Source of the DNA: Promicromonospora sukumoe 327MFSha3.1
Lineage (GTDB): Bacteria; Actinomycetota; Actinomycetes; Actinomycetales; Cellulomonadaceae
Length of the DNA: 64,000 bases
NCBI RefSeq assembly: GCF_000385135.1
Contig: NZ_ARQM01000010.1
Location: 434,001-498,000 of the forward strand
Direction: 5' to 3'
Part shown: positions 41,502 through 55,683 of the stretch, piece after piece
Position numbering within the stretch: the first letter of the stretch is position 1
Layout of the letters: each line of letters begins with the position of its first letter
The notes under the pieces: generated by a model
Told to the model about the DNA's origin: nothing
The model's database searches: none
Seen by the model: the letters and a program-made list of their open reading frames with translations, nothing else
Translations under genes and position numbers: made by a program

Positions 41502-41572
41502 GTGCGCTTCTACCCAGTCATTAGGCCCGAAACGAGGCAGTTTTCGGGCCTAATCGCTGGGTAGAAGCGCAC
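41502..41572 (+). terminator. Long hairpin terminator after the CGNR gene
   Basis: Arms of 15 bp (41502-41516 with 41558-41572) and 13 bp (ATTAGGCCCGAAA with TTTCGGGCCTAAT) are joined by a 3x3 internal site that holds one normal pair, one wobble and one mismatch; the loop is about nine bases. It starts 28 bases after the CGNR stop and separates it from the LacI operon. Confidence 0.7.
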
Positions 41573-41664
41573 TCCCGGCGCCCGGCCCGGCCTGGCCCGG
41601 CGCCCCCGGCCGGCCCGCTGCTTGACGTCCCCGCCGCCCCGGTGCAACACTGGCGCCCATCACC

Positions 41665-41676
41665 GGAAACGTTTCC
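41665..41676. promoter_or_regulatory. LacI-family operator 1
   Basis: GGAAACGTTTCC, a perfect 12-base palindrome of the LacI/CcpA operator type with a central CG. It lies 71 bases before the LacI start and 34 bases, centre to centre, from operator 2. Confidence 0.7.
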
Positions 41677-41697
41677 AGTGATCGCCCGCCTGAAAAC

Positions 41698-41711
41698 TGG
41701 AAACGTTTCCA
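41698..41711. promoter_or_regulatory. LacI-family operator 2
   Basis: TGGAAACGTTTCCA, a perfect 14-base palindrome and an extended form of operator 1, 35 bases upstream of the LacI GTG. Two sites about three helical turns apart suggest cooperative binding and autoregulation of the whole operon. Confidence 0.72.
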
Positions 41712-41746
41712 AAGCGGGCAGGGCCTCACGAAGAAGTGGAGTGACA

Positions 41747-42778
41747 GTGTCGTCATCACGCGCCACCCTGATGCAGGTGGCCGAGCGCGCCGGGGTGTCG
41801 CTCGCGTCGACCTCGCGCGCGCTGCACGGCACGGGCGCGAGCAGCAAGATGGTGGACCGCGTCCGCGCGGCCGCCGCCGAGCTGGGCTACAGCCCGGACG
41901 CGATCGGCCGGTCGCTGCGCATGAAGCGCACCTTCCAGGTCGCCTTCGCCGTCGCCGACATCGGCAACCCGGTCTACGTCGAGATGCTCACCGCCATCCA
42001 CGAGGTGCTCGCGCCGCACGGGTACCGGGTGGTCGTCATGTCCACGGGGCACACCGTCGGCTCCACGGTCGACCTGGTCCGCAGCCTCGGCAGCGGCTTC
42101 GTGGACGGCCTCATCGTCAGCCCGCTGCGTACCGACGACGCGCTCGTCGAGGCGATCCGGCAGGCCCCGGTGCCCGTCGTCGTCATCGGCCGCTCGCTGG
42201 AGCAGCAGGGGATCGACTCGGTCTCCACCGACTCGGCCGCCGGCCTCGGCCACGCGGTCGCCCACCTCGTGGAGATCGGCCGCCGCCGCATCGGCTTCGT
42301 CAACGGCCCGCTCGACACCACCCCGGGCGCCGCCCGCCAGCGCGGGTTCGACGCCGCCACGAGCGGCCCGGACTTCGCGGGCGACCACGCCGAGACCGAG
42401 CGGGCCGACGACTTCACCGTCGCCGCCGGGCTCGCCGCCGCGCGCCGGCTGCTGTCCCGCACCCCGGCGGCAGGTCCGTTCGACGCCGTCGTCGCCGCCA
42501 ACGACCTGCTCGCCATCGGCGTCATCCGCGCCGCCCGGGAGCTGGGGCTCTCGGTACCCGGCGACCTCGCCGTCACCGGCATGGATGACACCGAGATCGG
42601 CCGCGTCTTCCAGCCCAGCCTGACGAGCGTCTCGCTCGGGTCGGCCGAGCGCGGCACCGCCGCCGCCCGGCTCGTCCTGGACCGGGTCGACGACGTCGCC
42701 GAGCCCGCCCAGCAGATCGCCATCGGACCGCGCCTGTTCGTGCGCGAGTCCACCGCCAAGGAGATGAGCGCACGATGA
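41747..42778 (+). CDS. LacI-family transcriptional regulator
   Basis: A 343-residue repressor that heads its own operon. The N-terminal helix-turn-helix and hinge are plain (TLMQVAERAGVSLASTSRAL, ELGYSPDAIGRSLR), followed by the periplasmic-binding-protein-like sugar domain (GFVDGLIVSP, HAVAHLVEIGRRRIGFVNGP, LAVTGMDDTEIGRVFQPSLT). The starts GTG 41747 or GTG 41741 are both possible; 41747 follows AGTGGAG at good spacing. It overlaps the first permease by four bases. Two GGAAACGTTTCC sites upstream are its probable operators. Confidence 0.93.
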   Translation: MSSSRATLMQVAERAGVSLASTSRALHGTGASSKMVDRVRAAAAELGYSPDAIGRSLRMKRTFQVAFAVADIGNPVYVEMLTAIHEVLAPHGYRVVVMSTGHTVGSTVDLVRSLGSGFVDGLIVSPLRTDDALVEAIRQAPVPVVVIGRSLEQQGIDSVSTDSAAGLGHAVAHLVEIGRRRIGFVNGPLDTTPGAARQRGFDAATSGPDFAGDHAETERADDFTVAAGLAAARRLLSRTPAAGPFDAVVAANDLLAIGVIRAARELGLSVPGDLAVTGMDDTEIGRVFQPSLTSVSLGSAERGTAAARLVLDRVDDVAEPAQQIAIGPRLFVRESTAKEMSAR

Positions 42779-43728
42779 CCGTCCTCGCCTCGCCCCGGCC
42801 GTCGCCGCCGCGGCCCCGGCGCAACCGAGCCCCGCGGGGCATCGAGCGGGCCCGGCGCCGCGAGGCCGCCGCGCTGGTGATGCCGTCGCTGCTGCCGATC
42901 CTGGTGCTGTCCGTCGCGCCGCTGCTCATGGGCGTGCTGCTCGCGTTCACCGACGCGGAGCTGGTGCGCCGCCCCGACTACCAGTTCGTCGGCGTCGACA
43001 ACTTCGTGCGGCTGGCCGGCAACTCGTTCTTCTGGGAGTCGTTCCGCATCGGCATGGTGTGGGCGGTCTCGGTGACGCTGCTCCAGCTCGTCGCCGCGCT
43101 CGGCCTCGCGCTGCTGCTCAACTCCGGGCTGCGGCTGCAGGGGCTCACCCGCGTGCTGGCCCTGATCCCGTGGGCGATGCCGCCCGTCGTCGTGGCGATC
43201 ATGTGGAAGATGATCTACTCGCCCAACGCGGGTCCGCTCAACGCGTTCCTGGGCTCGGTCGGTCTGCCGGACGACATCAACTGGCTCGCCGACTTCTCGA
43301 CCGCGCTGCCCGCGGTGATCGTCGTCGGCGTCTGGGTGGGCATGCCCCAGACCACGGTGACGCTGCTCGCCGGGCTGCAGCAGATCCCGGCCGAGCTGCA
43401 CGAGGCCGCCGCGATGGACGGCGCCGGCGCCTGGCGCCGGTTCTGGGCCGTCACCCTGCCGAGCCTGCGGCCGATCGTCGCGTCGATCACGTCGCTCAAC
43501 TTCATCTGGAACTTCAACTCGTTCTCCCTGGTCTACGTGCTGACCGAGGGCGGGCCCGGCGGCCGCACCATGCTGCCGATGCTGTTCACCTACCTCGAGG
43601 CGTTCAAGAACCGGAACATCGGCTACGCCGCGGCGATGGGCGTCGTGCTCGTCGTCGTGGTGGTCCTCCTCCTGGCGCTGTACCTGCGCTCGCAGTTCCG
43701 CGAAGACCGCACCGAGAAGAAGGGCTGA
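42775..43728 (+). CDS. ABC transporter permease 1 of the LacI operon
   Basis: A 317-residue CUT1-type permease with an Arg/Pro-rich cytoplasmic N-terminus, six membrane helices and the EAA loop (HEAAAMDGAGAWRRFWAVTL) near residues 207-226. It starts inside the LacI stop (ATGA) and is followed by its partner after four bases. The importer has no ATPase gene nearby. Confidence 0.92.
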   Translation: MTVLASPRPSPPRPRRNRAPRGIERARRREAAALVMPSLLPILVLSVAPLLMGVLLAFTDAELVRRPDYQFVGVDNFVRLAGNSFFWESFRIGMVWAVSVTLLQLVAALGLALLLNSGLRLQGLTRVLALIPWAMPPVVVAIMWKMIYSPNAGPLNAFLGSVGLPDDINWLADFSTALPAVIVVGVWVGMPQTTVTLLAGLQQIPAELHEAAAMDGAGAWRRFWAVTLPSLRPIVASITSLNFIWNFNSFSLVYVLTEGGPGGRTMLPMLFTYLEAFKNRNIGYAAAMGVVLVVVVVLLLALYLRSQFREDRTEKKG

Positions 43729-43732
43729 GCCG

Positions 43733-44560
43733 ATGCGCACCCTCGTCCGCCCCGCCCAGTACGTGGCGCTGGCCGGTTACATCCTGTTCCTGGGGTTCCC
43801 GCTGCTGTGGCTGATCTCGGCCTCGGTCAAGTCGTCCGGCGAGCTGAACTCGCTGGTCGTGAACCTGCTGCCGCAGGAGTGGCACTGGGAGAACTACTCC
43901 GAGGCGCTGGCCCGGCAGGGGCTCGTGCAGTCGGCGGCCAACAGCGCGATCGTCGCGCTCGCGTCCACCGCGCTCGTCATCCTGATCGCGCTGCCGGCCT
44001 CCTACGTGCTGGCGCGCCTCAAGGGCGCCATCCGCGCGGCCGGCGTCGGCTGGATCCTGGTGAGCCAGGTGTTCCCGGTGATCCTCGTGATCCTGCCGCT
44101 GTTCCTCATCCTGCGGACGATCGGTCTGACCGACAGCCTGGTCGGGCTCACGCTCGTGCACACCACCTACACGCTGCCGTTCGCGCTGTGGATGCTGCAG
44201 GGTTACGTGGCCGCCATCCCCGTCGAGCTGGAGGAGGCGGGGTCGATGGACGGCGCCAGCCGCCTCGTCGTGCTGCGCCGGATCGTCGTCCCGCTGCTCG
44301 CCCCCGGCGTCGTCGCCACGGCGATGTTCAGCTTCGTGTCCTCGTGGAACGAGTTCTTCTTCGCGCTCGTCCTGCTCCAGTCGCCCGAGAACTACACCCT
44401 GCCCATCACGCTGTCGACGTTCATCGGCGGCGAGGGCAAGGTCGCGCTCGGCCCCCTGGCGGCGGGCTCCGTGCTCGCCGCGATCCCCAGCATCGTCTTC
44501 TTCTCGATCATGCAGAAGAAGCTCACCGGCGGCCTCATGGCCGGGGCGGTCAAGGGATGA
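43733..44560 (+). CDS. ABC transporter permease 2 of the LacI operon
   Basis: A 275-residue MalG-type permease with six helices, EAA loop (EEAGSMDGASRLVVLRRIVV) and C-terminal KKLTGGLMAGAVKG. It completes the membrane part of the importer. An ATG at 44557 overlaps its stop, but the binding-protein signal peptide begins at 44599. Confidence 0.92.
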   Translation: MRTLVRPAQYVALAGYILFLGFPLLWLISASVKSSGELNSLVVNLLPQEWHWENYSEALARQGLVQSAANSAIVALASTALVILIALPASYVLARLKGAIRAAGVGWILVSQVFPVILVILPLFLILRTIGLTDSLVGLTLVHTTYTLPFALWMLQGYVAAIPVELEEAGSMDGASRLVVLRRIVVPLLAPGVVATAMFSFVSSWNEFFFALVLLQSPENYTLPITLSTFIGGEGKVALGPLAAGSVLAAIPSIVFFSIMQKKLTGGLMAGAVKG

Positions 44561-44598
44561 CCGTCCGTACCCGCACCACCAACCCGAAAGGCCGACCC

Positions 44599-45873
44599 AT
44601 GAAGTCTCGTGGAGTGTTCATCGCCGCATGCCTCACGACCACCACCCTGCTGCTCGCGGCCTGCGGCAGCGGCGACGCGGGCGACGACGGCCCGGTCACC
44701 CTGAAGTTCCAGGCCCTGTCCGACCAGCCGGCCGCCATCGCGGCGACCGAGTCGATCGTCGAGGACTGGAATACGGCGAACCCCGACGTCCAGGTCGAGA
44801 TCGTCCCGGCCGGCTGGGACGGCGTCTACGACAAGCTGATCACCCAGTTCAACGGCGGCGCCGCGCCCGACATCATCCACTACGAGGCCGCGAGCATCGT
44901 CTCGTTCGCCCGCGACGGCTACCTCGCGGACCTGACCGACCTCATGTCGGACGAGCGCCGCGCCGACATCCCGCAGGGCATCCTCGACTCGGTCACGGTC
45001 GACGACCAGGTGGTCGCCTACCCGACCGAGCTCCAGTCCTACGTGGTCTTCGCCAATCGCACGCTGCTGGAGGACGCCGGGGTCGAGGTCCCGACGGGCG
45101 ACACCATGACGTGGGACGAGCTGCGCGAGATCGCGCAGGCCACCACGAAGGGCGACGTCTACGGCCTCGGCTGGGGCCTGTCGAGCCCGACGGCGGCCTT
45201 CATGTCGCTGGCCCCCGGGTTCGGCGGCACCTACATCACGGGCACCGGCGAGGACGCCGACCTGACCGTCGGCGCCGGCGAGATGGCGCTGCCCGAGCTG
45301 GTGCACGCCATGGCCTACGACGACAAGACGATCCTGCCGGTGACCATGACGCAGTCCGGGTCCGAGGCCATCGCGTCGTTCTACGCCGGTCAGACGGCGA
45401 TGACCGTGCAGGGCTCGTACCAGGCAGCGAACATCGCCAAGGACGCCCCCGAGGACTTCGACTGGGTGGCGCTGCCCCCGCTGGCCGGCCCCGAGGGCCC
45501 GCAGCAGGCCGCCAACCCGCAGACGCTCTCGGTCAACATCGACTCCGAGCACGTCGAGGAGTCCGCCGAGTTCATCGAGTTCTTCACGCAGACGGACCAC
45601 CTGGCCGCGCTGAACGAGGCGGACGCCCTGATCCCGGCGACGACGTCGGCCCAGGAGGCCATGACGGCCAAGCTCGGCGACGAGAACGGCTGGAGCACGA
45701 TCCTGGCCTCGGGCCAGAACTTCACCGCCGCGCCGTACCTGTTCGCCGACTCGTACGCGCAGTGGAAGGACACGGTGGCGACGCCGGCCTACCAGCGCTA
45801 CCTGGCGCAGGAGACCGACGAGGCGGAGCTCGCCGACCAGCTCACGAGCGGCTGGGACGAGATCACGCAGTAA
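44599..45873 (+). CDS. ABC sugar-binding lipoprotein of the LacI operon
   Basis: A 424-residue family 1 solute-binding lipoprotein. The signal peptide MKSRGVFIAACLTTTTLLLA ends at a lipobox with Cys22 (LAAC). The mature part shows VEIVPAGWDGVYDKLITQFN and GGAAPDIIHYE, typical of sugar-binding proteins. Unlike the binding protein at 24560 it has no twin-arginine motif and so uses the Sec route. AAAGG precedes the ATG. The ligand is unknown; downstream genes suggest a riboside or related glycoside. Confidence 0.9.
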   Translation: MKSRGVFIAACLTTTTLLLAACGSGDAGDDGPVTLKFQALSDQPAAIAATESIVEDWNTANPDVQVEIVPAGWDGVYDKLITQFNGGAAPDIIHYEAASIVSFARDGYLADLTDLMSDERRADIPQGILDSVTVDDQVVAYPTELQSYVVFANRTLLEDAGVEVPTGDTMTWDELREIAQATTKGDVYGLGWGLSSPTAAFMSLAPGFGGTYITGTGEDADLTVGAGEMALPELVHAMAYDDKTILPVTMTQSGSEAIASFYAGQTAMTVQGSYQAANIAKDAPEDFDWVALPPLAGPEGPQQAANPQTLSVNIDSEHVEESAEFIEFFTQTDHLAALNEADALIPATTSAQEAMTAKLGDENGWSTILASGQNFTAAPYLFADSYAQWKDTVATPAYQRYLAQETDEAELADQLTSGWDEITQ

Positions 45874-45928
45874 GACCGACGCGAGCGACGACTGACGCAC
45901 GCGACGCAGGAACGACGAGGGAGATACC

Positions 45929-47098
45929 GTGAGCTGGTTAGAGGACCGGTCGGTGGCCGTGATCACCGGTGCCGCAGTGGGGGACGCCCTCGGTGGGGCG
46001 ACCGAGGGGTGGACGCCGGAGCAGATCGAGGAGCGGCACGGGGGCCGCGTGCGCGGCATCGTCGGGCCCTGGTACCCCAACTGGCGCGACGCCCGCCCCA
46101 TCGCCCCGTACCACAAGGGGGACGGGCACGTCACGGACGACACCCTCATGACCCGGGCGCTCGTGGAGGTCTACGCCAAGCGGCGCGCGCACCTCGACGC
46201 GTACGCCATGGCGGAGGACCTGGTGCCGCTGATGATCGGGGAGCCGCGGTGGATCCCCGAGCTCGAGTCGACGGCGCTGCTGCTCCAGCGGGTGTTCCTC
46301 GCCGAGAAGTGGCTGGTGGCACGCCTGCACTACGGGCACGTGGACCCGCGCGAGGCCGGTGTCGGCAACGTCGTCAACTGCGGCGCGGCGATGTACGCGG
46401 CGCCCGTGGGGCTGGTGAACGCGGGCGACCCCCGCGGCGCCTACGCCGAGGCGATCGACCTCACGGGCGCGCACCAGTCCAGCTACGGCCGCGAGGCGGC
46501 CGGGGTCTTCGCGGCGATGGTCGCGGCCTCGGTCGCCCCGGGCGCCACGCTGGACGACGTCGTCGCGGCCGCGCTGGACGTGGCGCACGACGGGACGGCG
46601 GACGCGCTCCGCGCCGTCGTCGACGCTCTCGAGGGCTGGCCGGAGGCGCCCGCGAGCGACGACGAGGAGCGCAAGCTCGCCCGCCTCGTGCGGGAGGTCG
46701 TCGCCCCGTACGACTCGGTGGGCCCGGAGTACCGGCAGATGTCGATGGACGCGCGCCGCCCCTCGCGGACCAAGTCGATCGAGGAGCTGCCGGTCGCCCT
46801 CGGGCTGCTGCTCGGGCACCGCGGCGACTTCCGCGGCTCCGTGCTGGCCGCGGTGAACTACGGGCGCGACGCCGACTCGATCGCCGTCATGGCGGGCGCC
46901 GTCGCCGCCGGCCTGGGCGGCAGCGGCGTGGTGCCCACCGACTGGCTCGACGAGATCGAGACCGCCAGCAAGATGGACGTCCGCGAGACGGGCCGCCTCA
47001 TGGCGGACGCCGCGGGCGACATCCTGCGGGCGGACCGCGAGCGGGCGCTGGCCCGGCTCACGGAGCTGGACGCCGTCGGGGCGGGTGAGCCCGCGTGA
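45929..47098 (+). CDS. ADP-ribosylglycohydrolase-family protein 1
   Basis: A 389-residue all-alpha protein of the ADP-ribosylglycohydrolase (DraG/ARH) family, which removes ADP-ribose or hydrolyses related ribosides using two metal ions. Metal-binding signatures are present: GAAVGDALGGATEG, HVTDDTLMTRAL near residues 71-82, and GRDADSIAVMAGAV near 311. The intracellular enzyme has no signal peptide. Its place between a sugar importer and a ribokinase suggests a small imported riboside, not a modified protein, as substrate. GAGGGAGA precedes the GTG. It overlaps the next gene by four bases. Confidence 0.88.
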   Translation: MSWLEDRSVAVITGAAVGDALGGATEGWTPEQIEERHGGRVRGIVGPWYPNWRDARPIAPYHKGDGHVTDDTLMTRALVEVYAKRRAHLDAYAMAEDLVPLMIGEPRWIPELESTALLLQRVFLAEKWLVARLHYGHVDPREAGVGNVVNCGAAMYAAPVGLVNAGDPRGAYAEAIDLTGAHQSSYGREAAGVFAAMVAASVAPGATLDDVVAAALDVAHDGTADALRAVVDALEGWPEAPASDDEERKLARLVREVVAPYDSVGPEYRQMSMDARRPSRTKSIEELPVALGLLLGHRGDFRGSVLAAVNYGRDADSIAVMAGAVAAGLGGSGVVPTDWLDEIETASKMDVRETGRLMADAAGDILRADRERALARLTELDAVGAGEPA

Positions 47099-48465
47099 GG
47101 CTGACCTGGGCCCAGCCCGAGGACCTGCTGGCGCACGAGCTCGTGCAGTCTGCGGCCGAGGGCAAGGACGTCGCCGACGTCCGCGACCGCTGGGTCGCCG
47201 CGGGCGGCGACCCGACCCCGGCGGTCAGCGGTGCGGGTCCCGTCCCGGCGCCGCCGGCGCTGCGGGCGCTGGCCCGGGAGCTGCTGGACGAGCTGGATGC
47301 AAGGCCAGGAGTTTCCGCTCCGGACTCATGGTCCGACGTCGAGGCCCTGCTTGCACCCGCCCCGTCCCTGCCGAACCGTCCGGCCGGAGGCGACACCGCC
47401 TACGCCGCCCGCGTCCAGGGCGCCTGGACCGGCCGCGCCGCCGGCTGCCTGCTCGGCAAGCCGGTCGAGAAGATCCCGCGCGCCGGCATCGAGGAGATCC
47501 TCCGCTCCACGGGCCGCTGGCCGCTGGACCGCTGGTTCACCGCCGTCGGCCTGCCCGACGACGTCGCGGCCCGCTGGCCGTGGAACCGCCGGTCGGCGCC
47601 GACCTCGCTGGAGGAGAACATCTCGGGCATGCCCGAGGACGACGACCTCAACTACCCGATCCTGGCCCTCGCCCTCCTGGAGCAGCACGGGCGCGGGTTC
47701 ACCACGGACGACGTCGCGCAGCTCTGGCTGGACAACCTGCCCGCCGGACGCACCTTCACGGCCGAGCGTGCGGCCTACCGCAACATCCTCGACGCGGTGC
47801 CCGTGCCGGAGACGGCCACGCACCACAACCCGTTCCGCGAATGGATCGGCGCGCTCATCCGCACCGACCTGCTCGGCTGGGTCTCGCCCGGCGACGTGCG
47901 GGGCGCGGCCCGGCTGGCCTGGGCCGACGCCCGGCTCAGCCACACCGGTGATGGCGTCTACGGCGCGATGTGGGCCGCGGGTCTGGCCTCCGCGGCGGTG
48001 GTCGCGGCCGACGTCGACGACGTGCTGGACGCGGCGGACGCCGTCGTACCGCCTGGCAGCGGTCTCGCCGCGGCCGTAGCCCTCGGCCGGTCGCTCGGCC
48101 GCGAGTGTGACGGGAGCGAGGCCGGCGTGCGGGCCGGCCTGGACCGCATCCACGCCGAGTACGGGCACCTGCACTGGGTGCACACCCTGAACAACGCCGC
48201 CGTGATCGCGTTCGCGCTGACCGCGGGCCGGGGCGAGTTCGGGCCGAGCGTCTCGATCGCCGTCACGGCGGGCTGGGACACCGACTCCGCGGGGGCGACC
48301 GTGGGCGGCGTCGTCGGGGCGCTCGATCCCGAAGGAATGGGCGAGCGCTGGACCGCGCCCCTGGACGGGCGCATCGCGACGTCCCTGCCGGGCGGCGAGC
48401 AGCGCATCGCGGACCTGGCGGCGCGCACGGTGGCGCTGGCGTCGCCTGCCGGGGGTGCCGCATGA
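47095..48465 (+). CDS. ADP-ribosylglycohydrolase-family protein 2
   Basis: A second, clearly different family member, 456 residues. An extra N-terminal 100 residues (helical, Ala/Pro-rich) precede the ARH core, which shows GAWTGRAAGCLLGKPVEK, the acidic metal motif MPEDDDLNYPILAL near residues 180-193, and GWDTDSAGATVGGVVGAL near 397. The two enzymes may act on different anomers or on successive substrates. GTG at 47095 overlaps the previous stop; its own stop overlaps the ribokinase start. Confidence 0.88.
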   Translation: MRLTWAQPEDLLAHELVQSAAEGKDVADVRDRWVAAGGDPTPAVSGAGPVPAPPALRALARELLDELDARPGVSAPDSWSDVEALLAPAPSLPNRPAGGDTAYAARVQGAWTGRAAGCLLGKPVEKIPRAGIEEILRSTGRWPLDRWFTAVGLPDDVAARWPWNRRSAPTSLEENISGMPEDDDLNYPILALALLEQHGRGFTTDDVAQLWLDNLPAGRTFTAERAAYRNILDAVPVPETATHHNPFREWIGALIRTDLLGWVSPGDVRGAARLAWADARLSHTGDGVYGAMWAAGLASAAVVAADVDDVLDAADAVVPPGSGLAAAVALGRSLGRECDGSEAGVRAGLDRIHAEYGHLHWVHTLNNAAVIAFALTAGRGEFGPSVSIAVTAGWDTDSAGATVGGVVGALDPEGMGERWTAPLDGRIATSLPGGEQRIADLAARTVALASPAGGAA

Positions 48466-49388
48466 GCGGGACCGTGGTGGTGGTCGGGTCGGCCAACGTG
48501 GACCTCGTGGTCGACGTGCCGAGGCACCCCGCCGGCGGCGAGACCATCCTGGGCGGCGACCTGCGCCGCACACCGGGCGGGAAGGGCGCCAACCAGGCGG
48601 TCGCCGCGGCGCGCGCCGGGGGAGCGGACACCACGTTCGTCGGTGCGCTCGGCCGGGACGAGTCGGCCGAGCTGCTGCTCGCCTCGCTCGGCGGGGCGGG
48701 CGTGCGCACCGACACCGTCGACCGGGTCGACGCCCCGACCGGCACGGCCCTGATCACGGTCTCGCCCGACGGCGAGAACGCGATCGTCGTGGCGCCCGGC
48801 GCCAACTCGCACGTGCGGGTCGGAGCGGCGCAGGCGCGGCGGATCGCCGCGGCCGACGTCGTGCTGGCGCAGCTCGAGATCCCGCTCGACACCGTGATCG
48901 CGGCGGCCCGGGAACGTCGGGACGGCGCGTCGTTCGTGCTCAACGCGGCGCCGTCGCGGGACCTGCCTGACGCGCTGTGGGAGCAGGTGGACGTGCTCGT
49001 GGTCAACGAGCACGAGGCCGCGGACCTGGTCGGGCCGGGTTCCGGCGCGACGACGCCCGAGGATCTCGCGGCGGCCCTCCTGGCCCGGGTCCCCGCCGTG
49101 GTCGTGACCCTGGGCGCCGCGGGCAGTCTCGTGGCCCGGCGCGGTACCGACCCGGTCCGGGTCCCGGCCGCCGAGGTCGCGGCGGTCGACACCACCGGCG
49201 CAGGTGACACGTACTGCGGCGTCCTCGCCGCGGCCCTGGCGCAGTCCGGTCCGGCGGGCCTCGCTCAGGCAGCCCGGCTCGCCGGGGCCGCCGGGGCCCT
49301 CGCCGTCACCCGGCCCGGCGCGCAGGACGCCGTGCCGGACGCCGCCGACGTCGTCGTGCTGGCAGAAGAACTGGGAAAGGCACCATGA
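48462..49388 (+). CDS. rbsK: Ribokinase-like PfkB sugar kinase
   Basis: A 308-residue PfkB-family kinase. It shows VVGSANVDLVVDVPRHPAGG, the signature GGKGANQAVAAARAGG near residues 39-54, and the ATP/anion-hole motif DTTGAGDTYCGVLAAAL near 244-260. This is the pattern of ribokinase, which makes ribose 5-phosphate. Following two ADP-ribosylglycohydrolase-like enzymes, it most likely phosphorylates the ribose they free. Four-base overlaps on both sides. Confidence 0.88.
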   Translation: MSGTVVVVGSANVDLVVDVPRHPAGGETILGGDLRRTPGGKGANQAVAAARAGGADTTFVGALGRDESAELLLASLGGAGVRTDTVDRVDAPTGTALITVSPDGENAIVVAPGANSHVRVGAAQARRIAAADVVLAQLEIPLDTVIAAARERRDGASFVLNAAPSRDLPDALWEQVDVLVVNEHEAADLVGPGSGATTPEDLAAALLARVPAVVVTLGAAGSLVARRGTDPVRVPAAEVAAVDTTGAGDTYCGVLAAALAQSGPAGLAQAARLAGAAGALAVTRPGAQDAVPDAADVVVLAEELGKAP

Positions 49389-51352
49389 GCTACACCTTCG
49401 ACCCGCTGGTCCCGCGGCCGATCGACCGGCCGACCGAGGTCGTCGTCGGGCCGCTGACCGCCGAGCGGAGCACGGCCCTGGACGAGGCCAAGATCTTCTC
49501 CGGGCCGGCCGACCCCGCCGACCGCCCGGCCTGGCGCGAGATGCTGCACGCCTGGCGGGCCGACGCGCGGGAGCGGCACGGCTACACCGGCGCCGCCTAC
49601 GGGCGGCCCGAGGCCGCGTGGGCCGCGCGGTGCAGCACCGTGGCGCAGGTCTGGCTGTGGGACGAGCTGCTCTACTCGTTCGAGGAGGGGCGGTTCACGC
49701 CGGAGGTGTTCCTCGCCGATGCCCGGGAGCGGTTCGGCGGGCTCGACGCCGTCGTCCTCTGGCACGCCTACCCCGTGATCGGGCTGGACGACCGCAACCA
49801 GTGGGACTACTACCGGGACGTGCCCGGGCTGGCCGCGCTCGTGGCGACGTTCCACGACGCCGGGATGCACGTGTTCGTCGACTACAACCCGTGGGACGTC
49901 GGCACCCGGCGCGGCGACGACGACCTCACCGAGCTCGCCGCCGTGGTGCGCGAGCTGGGGGCGGACGGCGTCTTCCTGGACACGCTGAAGAAGGCCGAGC
50001 CGGAGCTGGTCGCGCGGCTGGAGGCGGCGCGGCCCGGGATCGTGCTGGAGGGCGAGTCCAAGCTGCCGGTCGAGCGCATCGAGGACCACTCCTCGTCCTG
50101 GGCCCAGTTCTTCGCCGACTCCCCGGTGCCGGGCGTGCTGCGCGCGCACTGGTACGAGCGCCGGCACATGCAGCACCACGTGCGGCGCTGGCACCGCGAC
50201 CACTCCGAGGAGCTGCAGTCCGCGTGGCTGAACGGCGTCGGCGTCATGGTGTGGGAGGTCGTGTTCGGCGTGTGGGTCGGCTGGTCGCGGCGGGACGCGG
50301 CGACGGTGCGGCGTCTCGTGACGGTTCAGCGGGCCGCGGGCGACCTGCTGCTCGACGGCGAGTGGACGCCGCTGGCGCCCCTGGCCCCGGAGGCCGAGGC
50401 CGCGGGCGTGTATGCGTCGCGGTGGGAGCTCGACGGGGTGACGCTCTGGACGCTGGTGAACCGGGGCGAGGCCGACTACGCGGGACCGGTGCTGGACGAC
50501 GGGACGGAAGCCGTCGTCCCGGCCCGCGGGATCGCGGCGCTGCTCGACGTCGGGCCCGACGCCGAGGAGCCCGCCTGGCTGCCGGGTCTCCGGGACGCGC
50601 TGCGGGACCTGCCGCACGACGCCGACGCCCGGTTCCCGCACCGGCTCGCGCGCCGGGTCGGGCTCGCGCCGTCCGGAGGATCGGGTGCGCCTGACCCGGA
50701 CGCCGTCGTCGTCCCCGCGGGCGACTACGTCCTGACCGTGCGCTACCGCGCCCGCGAGACCGGGATGTACCAGGGCGCGCCGTACGTGGACGAGTGGAAG
50801 CCACTGCCGCCGCGCCTGCACGACGCGCGGACCCTGCAGCGCGACGGCGTCCTCCCGACGGCGGTCGCGGTCGCAGCGTCGGAGGTGACGAACGCGCAGT
50901 TCGCGGCGTTCCTGGACGCGACCGGCTACGCGCCGGCGCAGGGGCACCGGTTCCTCGCGCACTGGTCCGACGGCCGCCCGGCCGCGGGCACCGAGGACGA
51001 GCCCGTCACGTTCGTGGACCTCGACGACGCCCGCGCCTACTGCGCGTGGCGCGGCGGCCGGCTGCCCACGGAGGACGAGTGGCAGCTCGCGGGGGAGGCC
51101 GCGCCGTCGTCGTTCGGGGTGGAGCGGCCCGGCGTCGCCGTCTGGAGCTGGACCGAGAGCGAGCACAGCGACGGCCGCACCCGGTTCGTCATGCTCAAGG
51201 GCGGCAGCGACTACCGCGCCCCGGACTCCGACTGGTACGTCGAGGGCGGGCGGCACGCGCCGGACTACGCGGTGAAGCTGCTGCTCCCGGGGCTCGGGCT
51301 CGCGCGGGCCGCGACCGTGGGGTTCCGTTGTGCGTGGGAGGTGTCGGCATGA
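49385..51352 (+). CDS. TIM-barrel hydrolase-like / SUMF1 (FGE-sulfatase) fusion protein
   Basis: A 655-residue cytoplasmic fusion. Residues 1-430 look like a (beta/alpha)8 glycosidase-type domain with a beta tail: LDAVVLWHAYPVIGLDDRNQ, MHVFVDYNPWDVGTRRGDDD, ADGVFLDTLKKAEPEL and VLEGESKLPVE place acidic residues at strand ends. Residues about 436-655 form a SUMF1/EgtB/PvdO-type domain (VAASEVTNAQFAAFLDATGY, YCAWRGGRLPTEDEWQLAGE, VMLKGGSDYRAPDSD, GFRCAWE). The FGE active-site Cys pair is not evident. I do not know this architecture. It lies within the overlapping-gene run, so it works on the same substrate or pathway. Confidence 0.78.
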   Translation: MSYTFDPLVPRPIDRPTEVVVGPLTAERSTALDEAKIFSGPADPADRPAWREMLHAWRADARERHGYTGAAYGRPEAAWAARCSTVAQVWLWDELLYSFEEGRFTPEVFLADARERFGGLDAVVLWHAYPVIGLDDRNQWDYYRDVPGLAALVATFHDAGMHVFVDYNPWDVGTRRGDDDLTELAAVVRELGADGVFLDTLKKAEPELVARLEAARPGIVLEGESKLPVERIEDHSSSWAQFFADSPVPGVLRAHWYERRHMQHHVRRWHRDHSEELQSAWLNGVGVMVWEVVFGVWVGWSRRDAATVRRLVTVQRAAGDLLLDGEWTPLAPLAPEAEAAGVYASRWELDGVTLWTLVNRGEADYAGPVLDDGTEAVVPARGIAALLDVGPDAEEPAWLPGLRDALRDLPHDADARFPHRLARRVGLAPSGGSGAPDPDAVVVPAGDYVLTVRYRARETGMYQGAPYVDEWKPLPPRLHDARTLQRDGVLPTAVAVAASEVTNAQFAAFLDATGYAPAQGHRFLAHWSDGRPAAGTEDEPVTFVDLDDARAYCAWRGGRLPTEDEWQLAGEAAPSSFGVERPGVAVWSWTESEHSDGRTRFVMLKGGSDYRAPDSDWYVEGGRHAPDYAVKLLLPGLGLARAATVGFRCAWEVSA

Positions 51353-52557
51353 GCGTGTCGCGCGATCCCGCCGTCGGCGCCCTGGCCGGGCTGCGCGTCG
51401 TGGACGCGTCCACGCTGTTCGCCGGGCCTATGGCGGCGATGCACCTGGGCGACCTGGGCGCTTCCGTCGTGAAGGTCGAGCACCCCACGAAGCCCGACCC
51501 GTCGCGCACGCACGGGGCGGCCAAGGACGGCGTCAACCTCTGGTGGAAGACGCTGGGGCGCAACAAGCGCACGGTCACCGCGAACCTGGGTTCGGACGGC
51601 GGGCGGGAGGTGTTCCTGGCGCTGGCCGAGCGGTCCGACGTCGTCATCGAGAACTTCCGGCCCGGCACCCTGGAACGCTGGGGCCTGGGCTACGAGGAGC
51701 TCTCGGCGCGCAACCCGGGGCTCGTGCTGGCTCGCGTTTCCGGGTTCGGTCAGACGGGCCCGTACCGCACGCGGCCGGGGTTCGGCACGCTCGCCGAGGC
51801 GATGAGCGGGTTCGCGGCGATGACCGGCGAGCCCGACGGCCCGCCCACGCTGCCGCCCTTCGGGCTGGCGGACGGCGTGGCGTCCCTCGCCACGGCGTTC
51901 GCGATCATGACGGCGCTCTCGGCGCGGGAGCGGACGGGGCGCGGGCAGGTCGTGGACACCGCGATCGTGGAGCCGATCCTGGCGATGCTCGGGCCGCAGA
52001 TCACGCGCTGGGACCAGCTCGGCACGGTGCAGGCGCGGACCGGCAACCGGTCGAGCAACAACGCGCCGCGCAACACCTACCGCACCAGCGACGGGCACTG
52101 GGTGGCCGTGTCGACGTCGGCCCAGTCGATCGCGGAGCGTGTGATGCGCCTGGTGGGGCGGCCGGAGCTCGTGGACGAGCCGTGGTTCGCGCGGGGCGTG
52201 GACCGGGCGCGGCACGCGGACGAGCTCGACGCCGCGGTCGGGGGCTGGATCTCTCTTCGGACGCGGGAGGAAGTGGTGGCGGCGTTCGAGGAGGCCCAGG
52301 CCGCCGTCGCGCCCGTGTACGACGCGCGGGACATCGTGGCCGACCCGCAGTTCCAGGCGCTCGGGACCGTTCACGAGATCGAGGACCCGGAGCTCGGGCC
52401 GATGCTGATGCAGGGGCCGCTGTTCCGGCTCTCGGAGAACGACGGCGTCATCGGGTTCACGGGCCGGCCGCACGGCGCGGACACCGACGAGGTGCTGGGG
52501 GAGCTGGGCTTCTCGGCGGAGCGGGTGGCCGAGCTGCGGGAGGCGGGGGCGGTATGA
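51349..52557 (+). CDS. Class III (CaiB/BaiF) CoA-transferase
   Basis: A 402-residue enzyme that moves CoA between carboxylic acids. Family features are LRVVDASTLFAGPMAAMHLG, VVKVEHPTKPDPSR, ENFRPGTLERWGLGYEELSA, RVSGFGQTGPY and the catalytic-type Asp175 in GLADGVASLATAFAIMTAL. Paired with the CitE-like gene that overlaps it by four bases, it resembles succinyl-CoA:malate/citramalate CoA-transferases that feed a malyl-CoA or citramalyl-CoA lyase. A CoA-transferase inside a sugar-uptake operon is unexpected. Confidence 0.9.
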   Translation: MSVSRDPAVGALAGLRVVDASTLFAGPMAAMHLGDLGASVVKVEHPTKPDPSRTHGAAKDGVNLWWKTLGRNKRTVTANLGSDGGREVFLALAERSDVVIENFRPGTLERWGLGYEELSARNPGLVLARVSGFGQTGPYRTRPGFGTLAEAMSGFAAMTGEPDGPPTLPPFGLADGVASLATAFAIMTALSARERTGRGQVVDTAIVEPILAMLGPQITRWDQLGTVQARTGNRSSNNAPRNTYRTSDGHWVAVSTSAQSIAERVMRLVGRPELVDEPWFARGVDRARHADELDAAVGGWISLRTREEVVAAFEEAQAAVAPVYDARDIVADPQFQALGTVHEIEDPELGPMLMQGPLFRLSENDGVIGFTGRPHGADTDEVLGELGFSAERVAELREAGAV

Positions 52558-53396
52558 CGGGGGCAGCCGCGGGCGGAGGCACGCCGCTGACCCTGCTCTA
52601 CGTGCCGGCCGACCGGCCCGACCGGGTGGCGAAGGCGCTCGCCTCGGCCGCGGACGCGGTGCTGGTCGACCTGGAGGACGCCGTCGCGCCGTCGCGCAAG
52701 GGGGAGGCGCGGGAGAACGCTCGGGTGTCCCTTGCTTCTGTCGCTGCGCGCGGGGTGCAGGTGCGGATCAACCATCGGAGCACGCCGTGGCATGCCGAGG
52801 ACGTCTCTCTTCTTGGGGTGTTGCCCTCCACGGTGGGCGCCCGGGTGCCGAAGGTGGAGTCGGTTGCTGAGGTGCAGGAGCTCGCCGACGCGCTGCCGGG
52901 CCGCGCCCTGCACCTGCTCGTCGAGTCGGCGCTCGGCGTCGAGCGGGCCTTCGAGCTCGCGACGGCGTCGCCGCAGGTCGCGTCGATCGGTCTGGGGGAG
53001 GCGGACCTCAGGTCTGACCTGCGGGTCGACGACGAGGACGGGCTGCTCTGGGCCCGAAGCCGCGTCGTGGTCGCGGCAAGGGCGGCGGGACTGGTGGCGC
53101 CGGTGATGTCGGCCTACACGAATGTGCGGGACCTGGCGGGACTGGCGGCGTCGTGCCGGGTGGGGCGCCGGCTGGGCTTCTCGGGGCGGACAGCGATCCA
53201 TCCCGGGCAGCTCGAGGTGATCCGGGCGGCGTTCCTGCCGTCGGCCGAGGAGGTCGCGGCGGCCCGGGAGGTGCTGTCGCGTGTGGCGGGCGCGGCGGAC
53301 GCCGGGGTCGGGGCGGTGGCGCTGGCCGACGGGACGTTCCTCGACGTGGCGATGGTGGAGCGGGCGCGGTGGGTGGTGGAGCTGGGGTCCGCGTAG
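52554..53396 (+). CDS. CitE-like HpcH/HpaI-family lyase
   Basis: A 280-residue protein of the citrate lyase beta/malyl-CoA lyase family: TLLYVPADRPDRVAKALAS, DAVLVDLEDAVAPSRK with the metal-binding acidic residues, VRINHRSTPWH with an Arg for the carboxylate, and FSGRTAIHPGQLEVI. It would cleave a beta-hydroxyacyl-CoA, for example malyl- or citramalyl-CoA, to acetyl-CoA and an oxo-acid. It ends the LacI operon. Confidence 0.9.
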   Translation: MTGAAAGGGTPLTLLYVPADRPDRVAKALASAADAVLVDLEDAVAPSRKGEARENARVSLASVAARGVQVRINHRSTPWHAEDVSLLGVLPSTVGARVPKVESVAEVQELADALPGRALHLLVESALGVERAFELATASPQVASIGLGEADLRSDLRVDDEDGLLWARSRVVVAARAAGLVAPVMSAYTNVRDLAGLAASCRVGRRLGFSGRTAIHPGQLEVIRAAFLPSAEEVAAAREVLSRVAGAADAGVGAVALADGTFLDVAMVERARWVVELGSA

Positions 53397-53815: not shown

Positions 53816-53901
53816 GGGAGAGGCCGGGGGCTCCGTTCTGCTCTTGGCAGACAGGGTTGTTCCAGCGAGCCAATCGAACGGGTGTGCCATATATTGATGG
53901 C

Positions 53902-55683
53902 ATGACGCGAACGGGTGAGGTGCCACGACGAGCAGGCAAGCAGCCTGCCCGATCTGTACTGCCCGGGAGCGGGGCGGTGGATGTCGCGGGTGTGCGGGCG
54001 GTGCGGCGGGCCCTGGCGGAGATGATCTTGCCCGGTGCCACTGACACTCCTGCCGGCGTTCCCGCGGCAATACGGGCGGAGTGGGTCGATCTACTCGGCG
54101 AGCTGGAGTCGGTGAAGAACGCGATCACCGCCACGCAGGCGCGGCTGACGGTCGCGCTGGACGAGGCGACCCGGGCTGACGAGGCATGGCAGAGCATCCG
54201 GGCTGAGCGGCAGGGGCGCGGCGTGCCCAACCAGGTCGGTGCCGCTCTGCGGGTGAGCCCGCATGCCGGGGCTGGGTTCGTGTCCACGTCTCGGGTCTGG
54301 GTCACGCAGATGCCACACACCTTCGCTGCCCTCCAGTCCGGAGTGTTGTCCCAGTGGCGGGCCACCCTCCTGGTCCGGGAGACCTCGCACCTGTCGCTGG
54401 AGCACCGGGCGCTGGTCGACGAGGAGATCTGCGGCCCCGTCCACCTGGCAGAGCTGGCGAAGATGAGCACCCGGCGGCTGATCGCCCGGATCAAGGAACT
54501 CGCCGCCCAGCTCGACGTGCACGCCTGCGTCAAGCGCAACGCGAAGGCCGTCACGGAGCGGCGGGTCTCGATCCGCCCAGCACCCGACCTCATGGTCTAC
54601 CTGACGGCACTGGTGCCGATGGCGCAGGGCGTGCAGGCCTACGCCCAGCTCAAGGCAACCGCCGACACAGCGAAGGCATCCGGGGACGAGCGTGGGGTCG
54701 GTCAGATCATGGCCGACACCCTCATCGAACGCGCCACCACCCGTGAACCCGGCCACGCGAACGACGTACCGGTGACGATCAACCTGCTGGTCTCCGACGA
54801 CACCCTCCTGGCCGGCGGCAACCAGCCCGGCGTGGTGGTCGAGGGCGCGCCCTCCGGCGCGGGCGTGGTCCCGGCACCGGTCGCCCGCAACCTCGCCGCC
54901 CACGCGATCGACACCGACACAGCCTGGCTCCGGAGCATCTACGTCAACCCCCACGGCCGCCTCCTGGCCACGACGTCCACCTCCCGGTTCCACCCGCAGG
55001 GCCTGTCGAGCCTCCTGCGGGCCCGGGAGCAGGGGATCTGCGCCACCGCCTGGTGCGACGCCCCGATCCGGCACACCGACCACGTCACCCCACACGCCGA
55101 GGGCGGCCCCACCAGTCTCGACAACGGCCAAGGCCTGTGCGCCAGGTGCAACCACGCCAAGCAGGCACCGGGCTGGTCACAGAAGACCACCCAGCTCAAC
55201 GGCCTCCACGCCGTCGAGACCATCACCCCGACGGGGCACACGTATGTCTCGGTCGCGCCCACCCCGCCGACACCAGCCAGGACTCAGGACACGACACCCA
55301 TGCGTAATGCCTCCTTCGTCCCAGCCACCGCCTCGGGCCGTGAAGGGGTATCGATCGCGGGCTCCACCAGGCGTGGTGACGGCAACACGTCGGCAGACCA
55401 ACTGGCGCCCGTCGCAGATTCCGAGACGCCCAGTGACGCGCCGGCAACACCGGCCTGGACCCCCGCGGTCGGCATGACCGGTCCCCCACCCGGCCACAAC
55501 CCACGCAGTCGCTACTCGATCGGCTGCCAGACCACCCCGGCCCACGGCGCGATCGCCTACCGTCCCACACCACCGCCTCGACCACGATCCCCTAAGCAAC
55601 GGGCGGCGCGATCGACCGGACCCGCAGCTCGACCGCCCAGCCGGACCGGTCGCGCCGACCTTTCGTGGGCACACCCCATGTGA
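53902..55683 (+). CDS. DUF222/HNH endonuclease-domain protein (13E12 type)
   Basis: A 593-residue protein of a family that is multicopy in many actinomycetes. The N-terminal half is the helical DUF222 domain (LLGELESVKNAITATQARLT). The C-terminal part has an HNH nuclease motif (GICATAWCDAPIRHTDHVTP, then LDNGQGLCARCNHAKQAPGW) at about residues 378-423. A long, low-complexity Pro/Thr/Ser tail of about 140 residues ends the protein. TATATT at 53890-53895 lies seven bases before the ATG at 53902 with no ribosome-binding site, suggesting a leaderless start. These proteins may be linked to mobile elements; no repeats flank this copy. Confidence 0.88.
   Translation: MTRTGEVPRRAGKQPARSVLPGSGAVDVAGVRAVRRALAEMILPGATDTPAGVPAAIRAEWVDLLGELESVKNAITATQARLTVALDEATRADEAWQSIRAERQGRGVPNQVGAALRVSPHAGAGFVSTSRVWVTQMPHTFAALQSGVLSQWRATLLVRETSHLSLEHRALVDEEICGPVHLAELAKMSTRRLIARIKELAAQLDVHACVKRNAKAVTERRVSIRPAPDLMVYLTALVPMAQGVQAYAQLKATADTAKASGDERGVGQIMADTLIERATTREPGHANDVPVTINLLVSDDTLLAGGNQPGVVVEGAPSGAGVVPAPVARNLAAHAIDTDTAWLRSIYVNPHGRLLATTSTSRFHPQGLSSLLRAREQGICATAWCDAPIRHTDHVTPHAEGGPTSLDNGQGLCARCNHAKQAPGWSQKTTQLNGLHAVETITPTGHTYVSVAPTPPTPARTQDTTPMRNASFVPATASGREGVSIAGSTRRGDGNTSADQLAPVADSETPSDAPATPAWTPAVGMTGPPPGHNPRSRYSIGCQTTPAHGAIAYRPTPPPRPRSPKQRAARSTGPAARPPSRTGRADLSWAHPM

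Follow-up and report, generated by a model that had tools for sequence, protein, structure and literature searches.

A conserved actinomycete operon joins sugar-type import and two ADP-ribosylglycohydrolase-family proteins to a CoA-transferase and a CoA-ester lyase

We analysed a stretch of 64,000 nucleotides (the window) from Promicromonospora sukumoe 327MFSha3.1 and found that it carries an operon of ten genes at positions 41741-53396, all of them intact and on the plus strand. An earlier reading, made from the sequence only, had described ten co-directional genes running from a LacI-type repressor to a CitE-like lyase, in which the last six (45929 to 53396) were joined by exact four-base overlaps, and had assigned the products to families. 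All ten genes are present, the last six are linked by five such overlaps (one GTGA, four ATGA), and Pfam agrees with the assignments (PF03747 twice, PF00294, PF03781, PF02515 and PF03328). A sixth 4-bp overlap lies between the LacI and MalF-like genes. In the following, ARH stands for ADP-ribosylglycohydrolase, CoA for coenzyme A, FGE for formylglycine-generating enzyme and GH for glycoside hydrolase.

41664-41677, no strand: LacI-type operator-like palindrome 1, CGGAAACGTTTCCA, kept upstream of LacI in relatives
41698-41711, no strand: LacI-type operator-like palindrome 2, TGGAAACGTTTCCA, kept upstream of LacI in relatives
41741-42778, plus strand: LacI-family repressor (PF00356, 8.6e-9; PF13377, 2.7e-31)
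42775-43728, plus strand: CUT1-type permease, MalF-like (PF00528, 1.1e-24; best NCBIfam match UgpA, 121.8 bits, cut-off 335)
43733-44560, plus strand: CUT1-type permease, MalG-like (PF00528, 9.8e-16; best NCBIfam match GlcU, 121.1 bits, cut-off 340)
44599-45873, plus strand: solute-binding lipoprotein (PF01547, 1.2e-34; lipobox LLLAACGSG, by eye)
45929-47098, plus strand: ARH1, ADP-ribosylglycohydrolase-family protein (PF03747, 2e-47, 162.7 bits, cut-off 26.2)
47095-48465, plus strand: ARH2, another protein with the ARH fold, from a separate subfamily (PF03747, 1.2e-38, 133.9 bits, residues 109-410)
48462-49388, plus strand: ribokinase-like PfkB kinase, RbsK-like (PF00294; TIGR02152, 263.4 bits)
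49385-51352, plus strand: TIM-barrel glycosidase-like protein (residues 1 to about 430, from the predicted structure) fused to a SUMF1/FGE-like domain (about 480-655; PF03781)
51349-52557, plus strand: CaiB-type (class III) CoA-transferase (PF02515, 2.8e-119, 399 bits)
52554-53396, plus strand: CitE-like CoA-ester lyase of the HpcH/HpaI family (PF03328, 3.2e-31; best NCBIfam match RipC_Ccl, 148.6 bits)

For the LacI gene the GTG at 41741 is the most likely start, 41747 being a later in-frame GTG, and the lipoprotein gene may start earlier, at 44557, which would give a 4-bp overlap with the MalG-like gene. None of the ten genes encodes an ATPase; a rhizobial UgpC query gave 12 ABC-ATPase matches elsewhere in the genome (E 1e-40), the best with 57% identity. 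CUT1 glycoside-utilisation operons of actinobacteria likewise combine LacI, two permeases, a lipoprotein and intracellular hydrolases with an ATPase encoded elsewhere, but here the hydrolases are the ARH proteins and the TIM-SUMF1 protein, and the CaiB-CitE pair (the CoA pair) is added. A ribokinase-like kinase and a LacI-family repressor are also found in ribose (rbs) operons. However, rbs operons are defined by the RbsABC (CUT2) transporter, whereas the operon in the window has CUT1-type permeases and a PF01547 solute-binding protein (SBP); a canonical ribose operon was rejected for this wrong type of transporter.

The distribution of the genes was followed in two samples. For the first, we searched 394 genomes from the class with the TIM part of the eighth gene, which matched in 20, including the genome itself; in the second, a genome scan gave 304 confirmed stretches encoding relatives of the TIM protein, of which the best 80 were kept. 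The samples share loci (at least L024 = L089 and L025 = L112), so that their counts are not added up. ARH1, ARH2, TIM, CaiB and CitE genes follow in this order at 18 of the 19 non-self loci of the first sample, 16 of which also have the kinase; the 19th (L042) has the TIM-SUMF1 gene alone, adjoining a GH3 gene. At one locus, L035, 2.2 kb separate CaiB and CitE. The operons of one family (f27), which may be Streptomyces-like, contain additional ARH-related genes at 14 of 15 loci, one (c6) at 14 and the other (c9) at 13, giving four ARH proteins; one contig begins inside c6, and Pfam was applied to c6 and c9 of one locus, L036.

Among the best 80 loci, tblastn matched LacI in 74, MalF in 75, MalG in 75, the SBP in 74, ARH1 in 73, ARH2 in 76, RbsK in 68, TIM-SUMF1 in 80, and CaiB and CitE in 77 each. 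The search of other actinomycetes that had been recommended thus recovered all ten genes at 63 loci, and nine genes without RbsK at another 9. Some absent genes are explained by contig ends (L046, L051, L097, L099, L101). The order of the genes is the same at 79 of the 80; it differs in L082, a scaffold interrupted by N gaps, whose off-operon matches are included in the MalF and MalG counts. Moreover, the 4-bp overlaps recur: LacI/MalF (71/74), ARH1/ARH2 (62/73), ARH2/RbsK (60/66), RbsK/TIM (49/68), TIM/CaiB (73/76) and CaiB/CitE (63/76). They are less common for MalF/MalG (22/74), MalG/SBP (25/74) and SBP/ARH1 (5/73), and where RbsK is missing ARH2 overlaps TIM by 4 bp in 7 of 10 loci. Because order is kept and overlaps recur, the gene set, which spans many genera of actinomycetes, is more than a chance association. 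Loci that consistently lack the kinase or the CoA pair, which had been named as evidence that would speak against a common pathway, are not what we found in actinomycetes (kinase in 68, pair in 77 of 80). An insert between ARH1 and ARH2 in Kribbella (L117) was considered as a source of further pathway genes and rejected, since its two genes, a PhoD-like one on the opposite strand and a hypothetical one, do not belong to the pathway.

Related operons occur in rhizobia; for these and other related systems, gene names follow the annotation where the record has one. In Ensifer PDNC004 and Sinorhizobium B11 the operon comprises LacI, two permeases, an SBP, ARH1, ARH2, UgpC, a CoA transferase and a CoA-ester lyase, and the identity of the CoA pair of PDNC004 was checked with Pfam. 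Unannotated sequences of Ensifer adhaerens and Sinorhizobium chiapasense show matches in the same order as PDNC004, and Ensifer canadensis has a match to the transferase and none to the lyase. There are five rhizobial operons with ARHs and CaiB, one of which (L163) is missing the lyase match.

The region upstream suggests that the operon may be regulated by its own LacI. In the 6.25-Mb genome the palindrome motif occurs in the two listed places only, with up to one mismatch allowed, while the reversed pattern, used as a control, gave one match per strand. Across 1.64 Mb from the 80 actinomycete loci, all 98 occurrences of the operator-like core lie within 350 bp upstream of LacI. Where the sequence extends 120 bp or more upstream of LacI (71 loci), at least one core was found in 60, at least two in 38 and none in 11. 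As the motif is confined to the region upstream of LacI, the sites and their uniqueness fit a local repressor with a single target operon. Together with the conserved order and the overlaps, these private operator-like sites support one co-regulated unit of uptake and breakdown.

Overall, this is a real and strongly conserved catabolic operon, and the pathway proposed in the sequence-only reading, import of a ribosylated carboxylic acid with release of ribose to the kinase and of the acid to CoA-dependent cleavage, survives in outline. The unit itself, the link between ARHs and the CoA pair (77 of 80 loci, and rhizobia), the residues of the kinase and the nucleoside-type surroundings of a haloarchaeal ARH2 relative stand in its favour; the loci lacking the kinase, a GH127 gene in Sphingopyxis and the inconsistent rhizobial operons weigh against it. 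The same reading knew of no described pathway with this set of genes, and our searches of an open-access library likewise gave no description, subscription literature being outside their range. The terms ADP-ribosylglycohydrolase and ribokinase co-occur in two papers, on a staphylococcal cassette (PMC3900703) and on Bacteroidetes and iron (PMC10434189).

The two ARH proteins resemble the PF03747 family (DraG, the ARH1 and ARH3 hydrolases, MJ1187) in domain, fold and acidic motifs, which have a metal-binding-type role in this family; in contrast to those members, they are placed in a sugar-import operon. In ARH1, D70 and D71 are kept in 73/73 relatives and D314 and D316 in 72/73 (metal-type motifs TDDT and DADS); in ARH2, D395 and D397 are kept in 76/76 and E181-D184 in 74/76, the other two being gapped. 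ARH1 stays below the DraG and ADP-ribosylarginine hydrolase equivalog cut-offs (TIGR02662, 51.8 against 337.05 bits; NF041672, 39.7 against 490 bits). ARH2 has an N-terminal extension of about 105 residues and no NCBIfam match, and a sequence search at E 0.01 returned no solved relative. Its predicted structure (predicted local distance difference test, pLDDT, 93.4) is best matched in Foldseek by MJ1187 (1.4e-6, TM-score 0.78 by target length), and also by ARH3 and DraG; among the 50 matches listed, ARH-type proteins prevail, and one entry, 8xks, is recorded as a motor complex of the chloroplast type.

In a tree with the ARHs of 12 actinomycete operons, from which one copy of the own genome (in L152) was left out, ARH1 of actinomycetes and rhizobia forms one clade (100/100). 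Rhizobial ARH2 clusters with 700-residue proteins of Deinococcus and Enterobacter (100/100), apart from actinomycete ARH2. ARH2-type genes stand with CUT1 genes and a ribokinase in Mycolicibacterium and Deinococcus, and in Enterobacter an ARH gene lies between LacI and SBP genes. In the P. sukumoe genome three of the four other ARH-family places, among which are G000:C10:2099444-2101356 (L151) and G000:C5:23252-24160 (L152), are near LacI-type and CUT1-type genes as judged by eye, two of them in tandem.

The TIM barrel recognised earlier in the fusion protein is visible in the predicted structure (pLDDT 85.9, predicted TM-score 0.88, 44 sequences), and residues 1-430 have no Pfam match at E 0.1, so they belong to no known glycosidase family of Pfam. 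The best match of this domain in the PDB is a GH129 anhydrogalactosidase (5opq, 6.6e-10), followed by many amylase-type enzymes, fucosidases and a GH30 enzyme. PF03781 covers residues 493-572 (67.5 bits, cut-off 23.3), and the C-terminal part of the model matches CalU17, EgtB and FGE. Four acidic residues at strand ends, D199, E224, E258 and E291, are invariant in seven TIM sequences including those of Sphingopyxis and Spirosoma, and the first three are kept in 79/79 relatives (L096 left out); they are candidates for a catalytic role. Alignment A2 comprised 43 of the 80 loci, with L096 omitted because of stops in the match frame, and A3 comprised 33. The TIM domain may be a third glycosidase, an option absent from the sequence-only reading. 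In Tessaracoccus coleopterorum (L096, 10001-11952) the TIM-SUMF1 gene has these stops. The Spirosoma relative (L124, 14956-17130), adjoining a GH28 gene, has a signal-peptide-like N-terminus by eye, which suggests an exported version.

The RbsK-like protein has ribokinases as its best PDB matches (6znx first, 2.1e-60), and N12, D14, K41, N44, E139 and D249, which serve ribose contact and catalysis in ribokinases, are kept in 67 of 68 copies. Because of this kinase and of the ARH fold, ribose is the first candidate for the sugar.

The catalytic roles of the conserved ARH, RbsK, CaiB and CitE residues are known from their families. The aspartate that is catalytic in class III CoA-transferases corresponds to D203 of CaiB, kept in 77/77 relatives; in the CitE-like protein R71 and E124 are kept in 76/76 and D151 in 75/76. 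Class III transferases are paired with CitE-type cleavage in a known route, which serves carbon assimilation and not the use of glycosides. That route has the chemistry that we propose here, with transferase substrates as given in PMC5592240. According to PMC5592240 and PMC12290011, class III transferases accept (S)-malate and (S)-citramalate: the transferase of the itaconate pathway also takes (S)-citramalate, as does the malate CoA-transferase of Chloroflexus. The GNxH loop that marks ACOCT/mesaconate-type members (PMC5592240) is lacking in the CaiB protein of the window, which reads GNRS by eye.

In the last step of itaconate degradation (S)-citramalyl-CoA lyase yields acetyl-CoA and pyruvate (PMC12290011 and PMC5592240). 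The operon shares with the itaconate cluster (Ict/RipA, Ich/RipB, Ccl/RipC) the class of lyase and the adjoining CoA transferase, but its lyase is tied to sugar import and ARH genes, and no itaconyl-CoA hydratase is found among the ten genes. Itaconate degradation was rejected because this gene is lacking and the RipC_Ccl score is low. A second lyase homolog of C. necator that adjoins a CoA transferase without a hydratase is judged in PMC12290011 not to take part in itaconate assimilation.

Further indications for the acid come from CoA pairs that stand free of such operons. A search of plasmids with CaiB matched 194 records, of which 40 were listed, and 12 regions were examined for CaiB or CoA pairs; with CitE at a strict limit 3 records were found. 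The free-standing pair relative of R. opacus is accompanied by PrpF, an SLC13 permease and a second lyase, those of S. cattleyicolor by MmgE/PrpD, and those of Pararhizobium by a hydroxyacid dehydrogenase and RraA. In R. gordoniae, where 4 kb separate the transferase from the lyase, MmgE/PrpD, hydantoinase-type and cyclase genes are nearby, and a related transferase of Haloferax stands with HMG-CoA-lyase-type and isopropylmalate-dehydratase-type genes. Since free-standing relatives sit with diacid genes, the analogy points to a small hydroxy-diacid of four to six carbons.

From these data we propose, tentatively and with somewhat less than even confidence, that the operon serves the LacI-repressed uptake and breakdown of a conjugate of a pentofuranosyl unit, perhaps ribosyl, with a malate/citramalate-type hydroxy-dicarboxylic acid. 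The lipoprotein and the two CUT1 permeases would import the conjugate with an ATPase encoded elsewhere. Its glycosidic bonds would be cut by the TIM-barrel protein and the two metal-type ARHs, as their folds and conserved residues suggest. The kinase would phosphorylate the released sugar, which would then enter the pentose phosphate pathway. CaiB would transfer CoA to the released acid, and cleavage of the resulting CoA ester by the CitE-like lyase would yield acetyl-CoA together with a 2-oxo acid (glyoxylate if the acid is malate, pyruvate if it is citramalate). We infer every one of these activities, the identity of the sugar and the acid, and their origin from one molecule. If true, ARH-family proteins would gain a catabolic role, the TIM domain with its FGE-like module may represent a new glycosidase family, and the substrate would be common enough to maintain a dedicated operon in many soil bacteria (304 stretches with TIM relatives). 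With its private operator-like sites and its binding lipoprotein, the operon should allow the substrate to be found directly. The wider idea, that soil holds widespread and so far undescribed furanosyl (ribosyl) conjugates of hydroxy-dicarboxylic acids, that ARHs are intracellular catabolic glycosidases and that actinomycetes and rhizobia added the CoA pair, recruited once or twice, we regard as doubtful.

A number of observations weigh against the proposed breakdown of a ribosyl conjugate. To our knowledge, no ribosylated hydroxy-diacid of this kind has been reported. RbsK is absent within the sequence of 10 of 78 assessable loci (L057, L071, L089, L090, L091, L096, L100, L104, L106, L111); the 11 genomes without an operon RbsK have a TIGR02152 relative elsewhere in 10 cases (E 1e-30), 3 of them over the cut-off, and Tessaracoccus has none at E 1e-30. 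The CoA pair is absent from L071 and L095 despite about 10 kb of downstream sequence, and the operon has no esterase or further acid enzyme. The kinase (263.4 against 299.65 bits for TIGR02152), the transferase (217.9 against 700 for Scnl_mescCoAtase) and the lyase (148.6 against 375 for RipC_Ccl) all score under the NCBIfam equivalog cut-offs. TM-scores of the TIM domain are low, 0.36 for the best match and up to 0.50 by target length among the matches listed, so that its likeness is one of fold. The free CaiB relative of Sphingomonas (L135, 55%) stands with aromatic-dioxygenase, short-chain dehydrogenase/reductase (SDR) and MaoC genes, which are not plainly of diacid type. No kinase was found in the stretches of the five rhizobial CaiB operons, and other rhizobial operons differ again: Agrobacterium HAMBI 105 (L127) has a ribokinase in place of the CoA pair, the annotated operon of Nitratireductor (L126) has neither, Phyllobacterium (L159) has no CoA pair and a ribokinase-like fragment of 65 residues upstream, and Pseudochrobactrum (L130) has ARH1 with transport genes only. 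In Nonomuraea gerenzanensis (L154) four ARH-type genes and a kinase match share an operon that has neither TIM-SUMF1 nor the CoA pair. Finally, the haloarchaeal succinyl-CoA:mesaconate transferase, the nearest characterised enzyme by NCBIfam, is inactive with malate and citramalate according to PMC5592240. Next to these cases, R. leguminosarum (L160) has an upstream ribokinase match on the opposite strand and no CaiB match.

The best surviving alternative keeps the same architecture with a sugar other than ribose: another furanoside (arabino-, galacto- or apiofuranoside) would be cut, and the kinase would act on that sugar or be accessory. We consider this rather unlikely, yet another furanose is a serious rival because a GH127-type gene adjoins the TIM gene in Sphingopyxis. 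There a TonB receptor, a ribokinase, TIM-SUMF1, a protein of the GH127 beta-L-arabinofuranosidase type and a CoA transferase 34% identical to that of the window stand together, and no ARHs were found in the stretch examined, which also counts against ribose. The kinase is dispensable at the 10 loci named above, and TIM relatives elsewhere adjoin GH3 and GH28 genes, so that with Sphingopyxis three other loci show such glycosidase neighbours, which also favours the proposed glycosidase role of the TIM domain. On the other hand, the ribokinase-type residues are kept in nearly all copies of the kinase and its best structural matches are ribokinases. Moreover, a haloarchaeal relative of ARH2 (L139, 35%) is found in a nucleoside-type locus with two IU_nuc_hydro genes (3e-101 and 6.5e-82), a Bmp-type nucleoside-type binding protein (1.5e-52) and a PfkB kinase. 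We also weighed hydroxymethylglutarate (HMG), apiose, galactofuranosides of lichens, and substrates of the bacillithiol or nucleoside-acid type; no result singles one out.

Less probable is a shared regulon, and not one pathway, in which the sugar genes and the CoA genes act on different compounds found side by side in plant or fungal material. It is favoured by the ARH operons of Agrobacterium, Nitratireductor, Phyllobacterium and Nonomuraea, which do not contain the CoA pair, and by the free-standing CaiB/CitE pairs of other genomes; in N. gerenzanensis such a pair (L155; 63% and 49% identity) lies about 0.58 Mb from the ARH operon. However, the operon has no separate acid importer, the TIM-SUMF1 gene overlaps the CoA genes by 4 bp at nearly all loci (73/76), and the association is found both in actinomycetes and in five rhizobial operons.

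The history of the CoA pair bears on the same question. The CaiB trees contained 22 of the 77 CaiB genes plus 3 (first tree) or 2 (constrained test) from the first sample, and the clades tested were chosen after the first CaiB tree was known. The constrained test dropped L135_Sphm_b, L135_Sphm_c, L123_Sphpyx_cl and L041_op for long branches or odd composition, and L137_Hlfx as a near-copy of L136. Rhizobial operon CaiB nests among free-standing rhizobial copies; actinomycete operon CaiB groups with free-standing copies from Burkholderia, Rhodococcus and Streptantibioticus, and a free Nonomuraea copy lies inside it, which suggests that the pair can escape from the operon. A clade that unites all operon CaiB and nothing else is rejected (p 5.84e-29), as for CitE (p 4.62e-61), whereas a single clade that admits the free copies L155, L157 and L158 is not (p 0.153 for CaiB, 0.154 for CitE). 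The pair may thus have joined ARH1-type operons either twice, or once with three later escapes. The trees do not establish two separate recruitments, which takes a little from the single-pathway proposal and adds a little to the two-compound reading. Identities between actinomycete and rhizobial proteins are alike for ARH1 (38-42%) and CaiB (44%), and are 31-32% for CitE.

An acid derived from the sugar itself is improbable. A released unusual sugar acid would be activated by CaiB and split by CitE, while the kinase would handle a by-product. This would agree with CUT1 importers, which carry sugars, and with the dehydrogenase genes and the PEP-mutase-type (phosphoenolpyruvate mutase) gene near TIM-SUMF1 in Sphingopyxis; but Pfam shows no dehydrogenase or dehydratase among the ten genes, and several free-standing relatives of the pair sit with diacid genes. 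Reversal of protein or small-molecule ADP-ribosylation, or recycling of ADP-ribose, is suggested by PF03747 membership and the ARH fold and is very improbable, as we rank such signalling low because of the fixed CUT1 sugar-import context, and similarity to solved ARHs is weak (2.2e-8 for the best ARH1 match, none for ARH2) and two further ARH genes occur in 13-14 of the 15 f27 loci.

Two neighbours of the operon were also noted. ARAGORN detected no tRNA or tmRNA in the window, and there was no Rfam match at gathering thresholds. Downstream of the operon, the gene at 53857-55683 resembles a repeat protein of the HNH/13E12 type. Just upstream, at 41502-41572, a 71-nt hairpin has a minimum free energy of -65.9 kcal/mol (z -11.5). 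It has 14 copies in the genome, always of 71 bp, with the exact outer arms fixed by the search, and the varying inner pairs 17, 18, 22, 23 and 29 are paired in 12, 11, 10, 13 and 8 of the 14 copies; it is a dispersed family of palindromes resembling REP (repetitive extragenic palindromic) elements.

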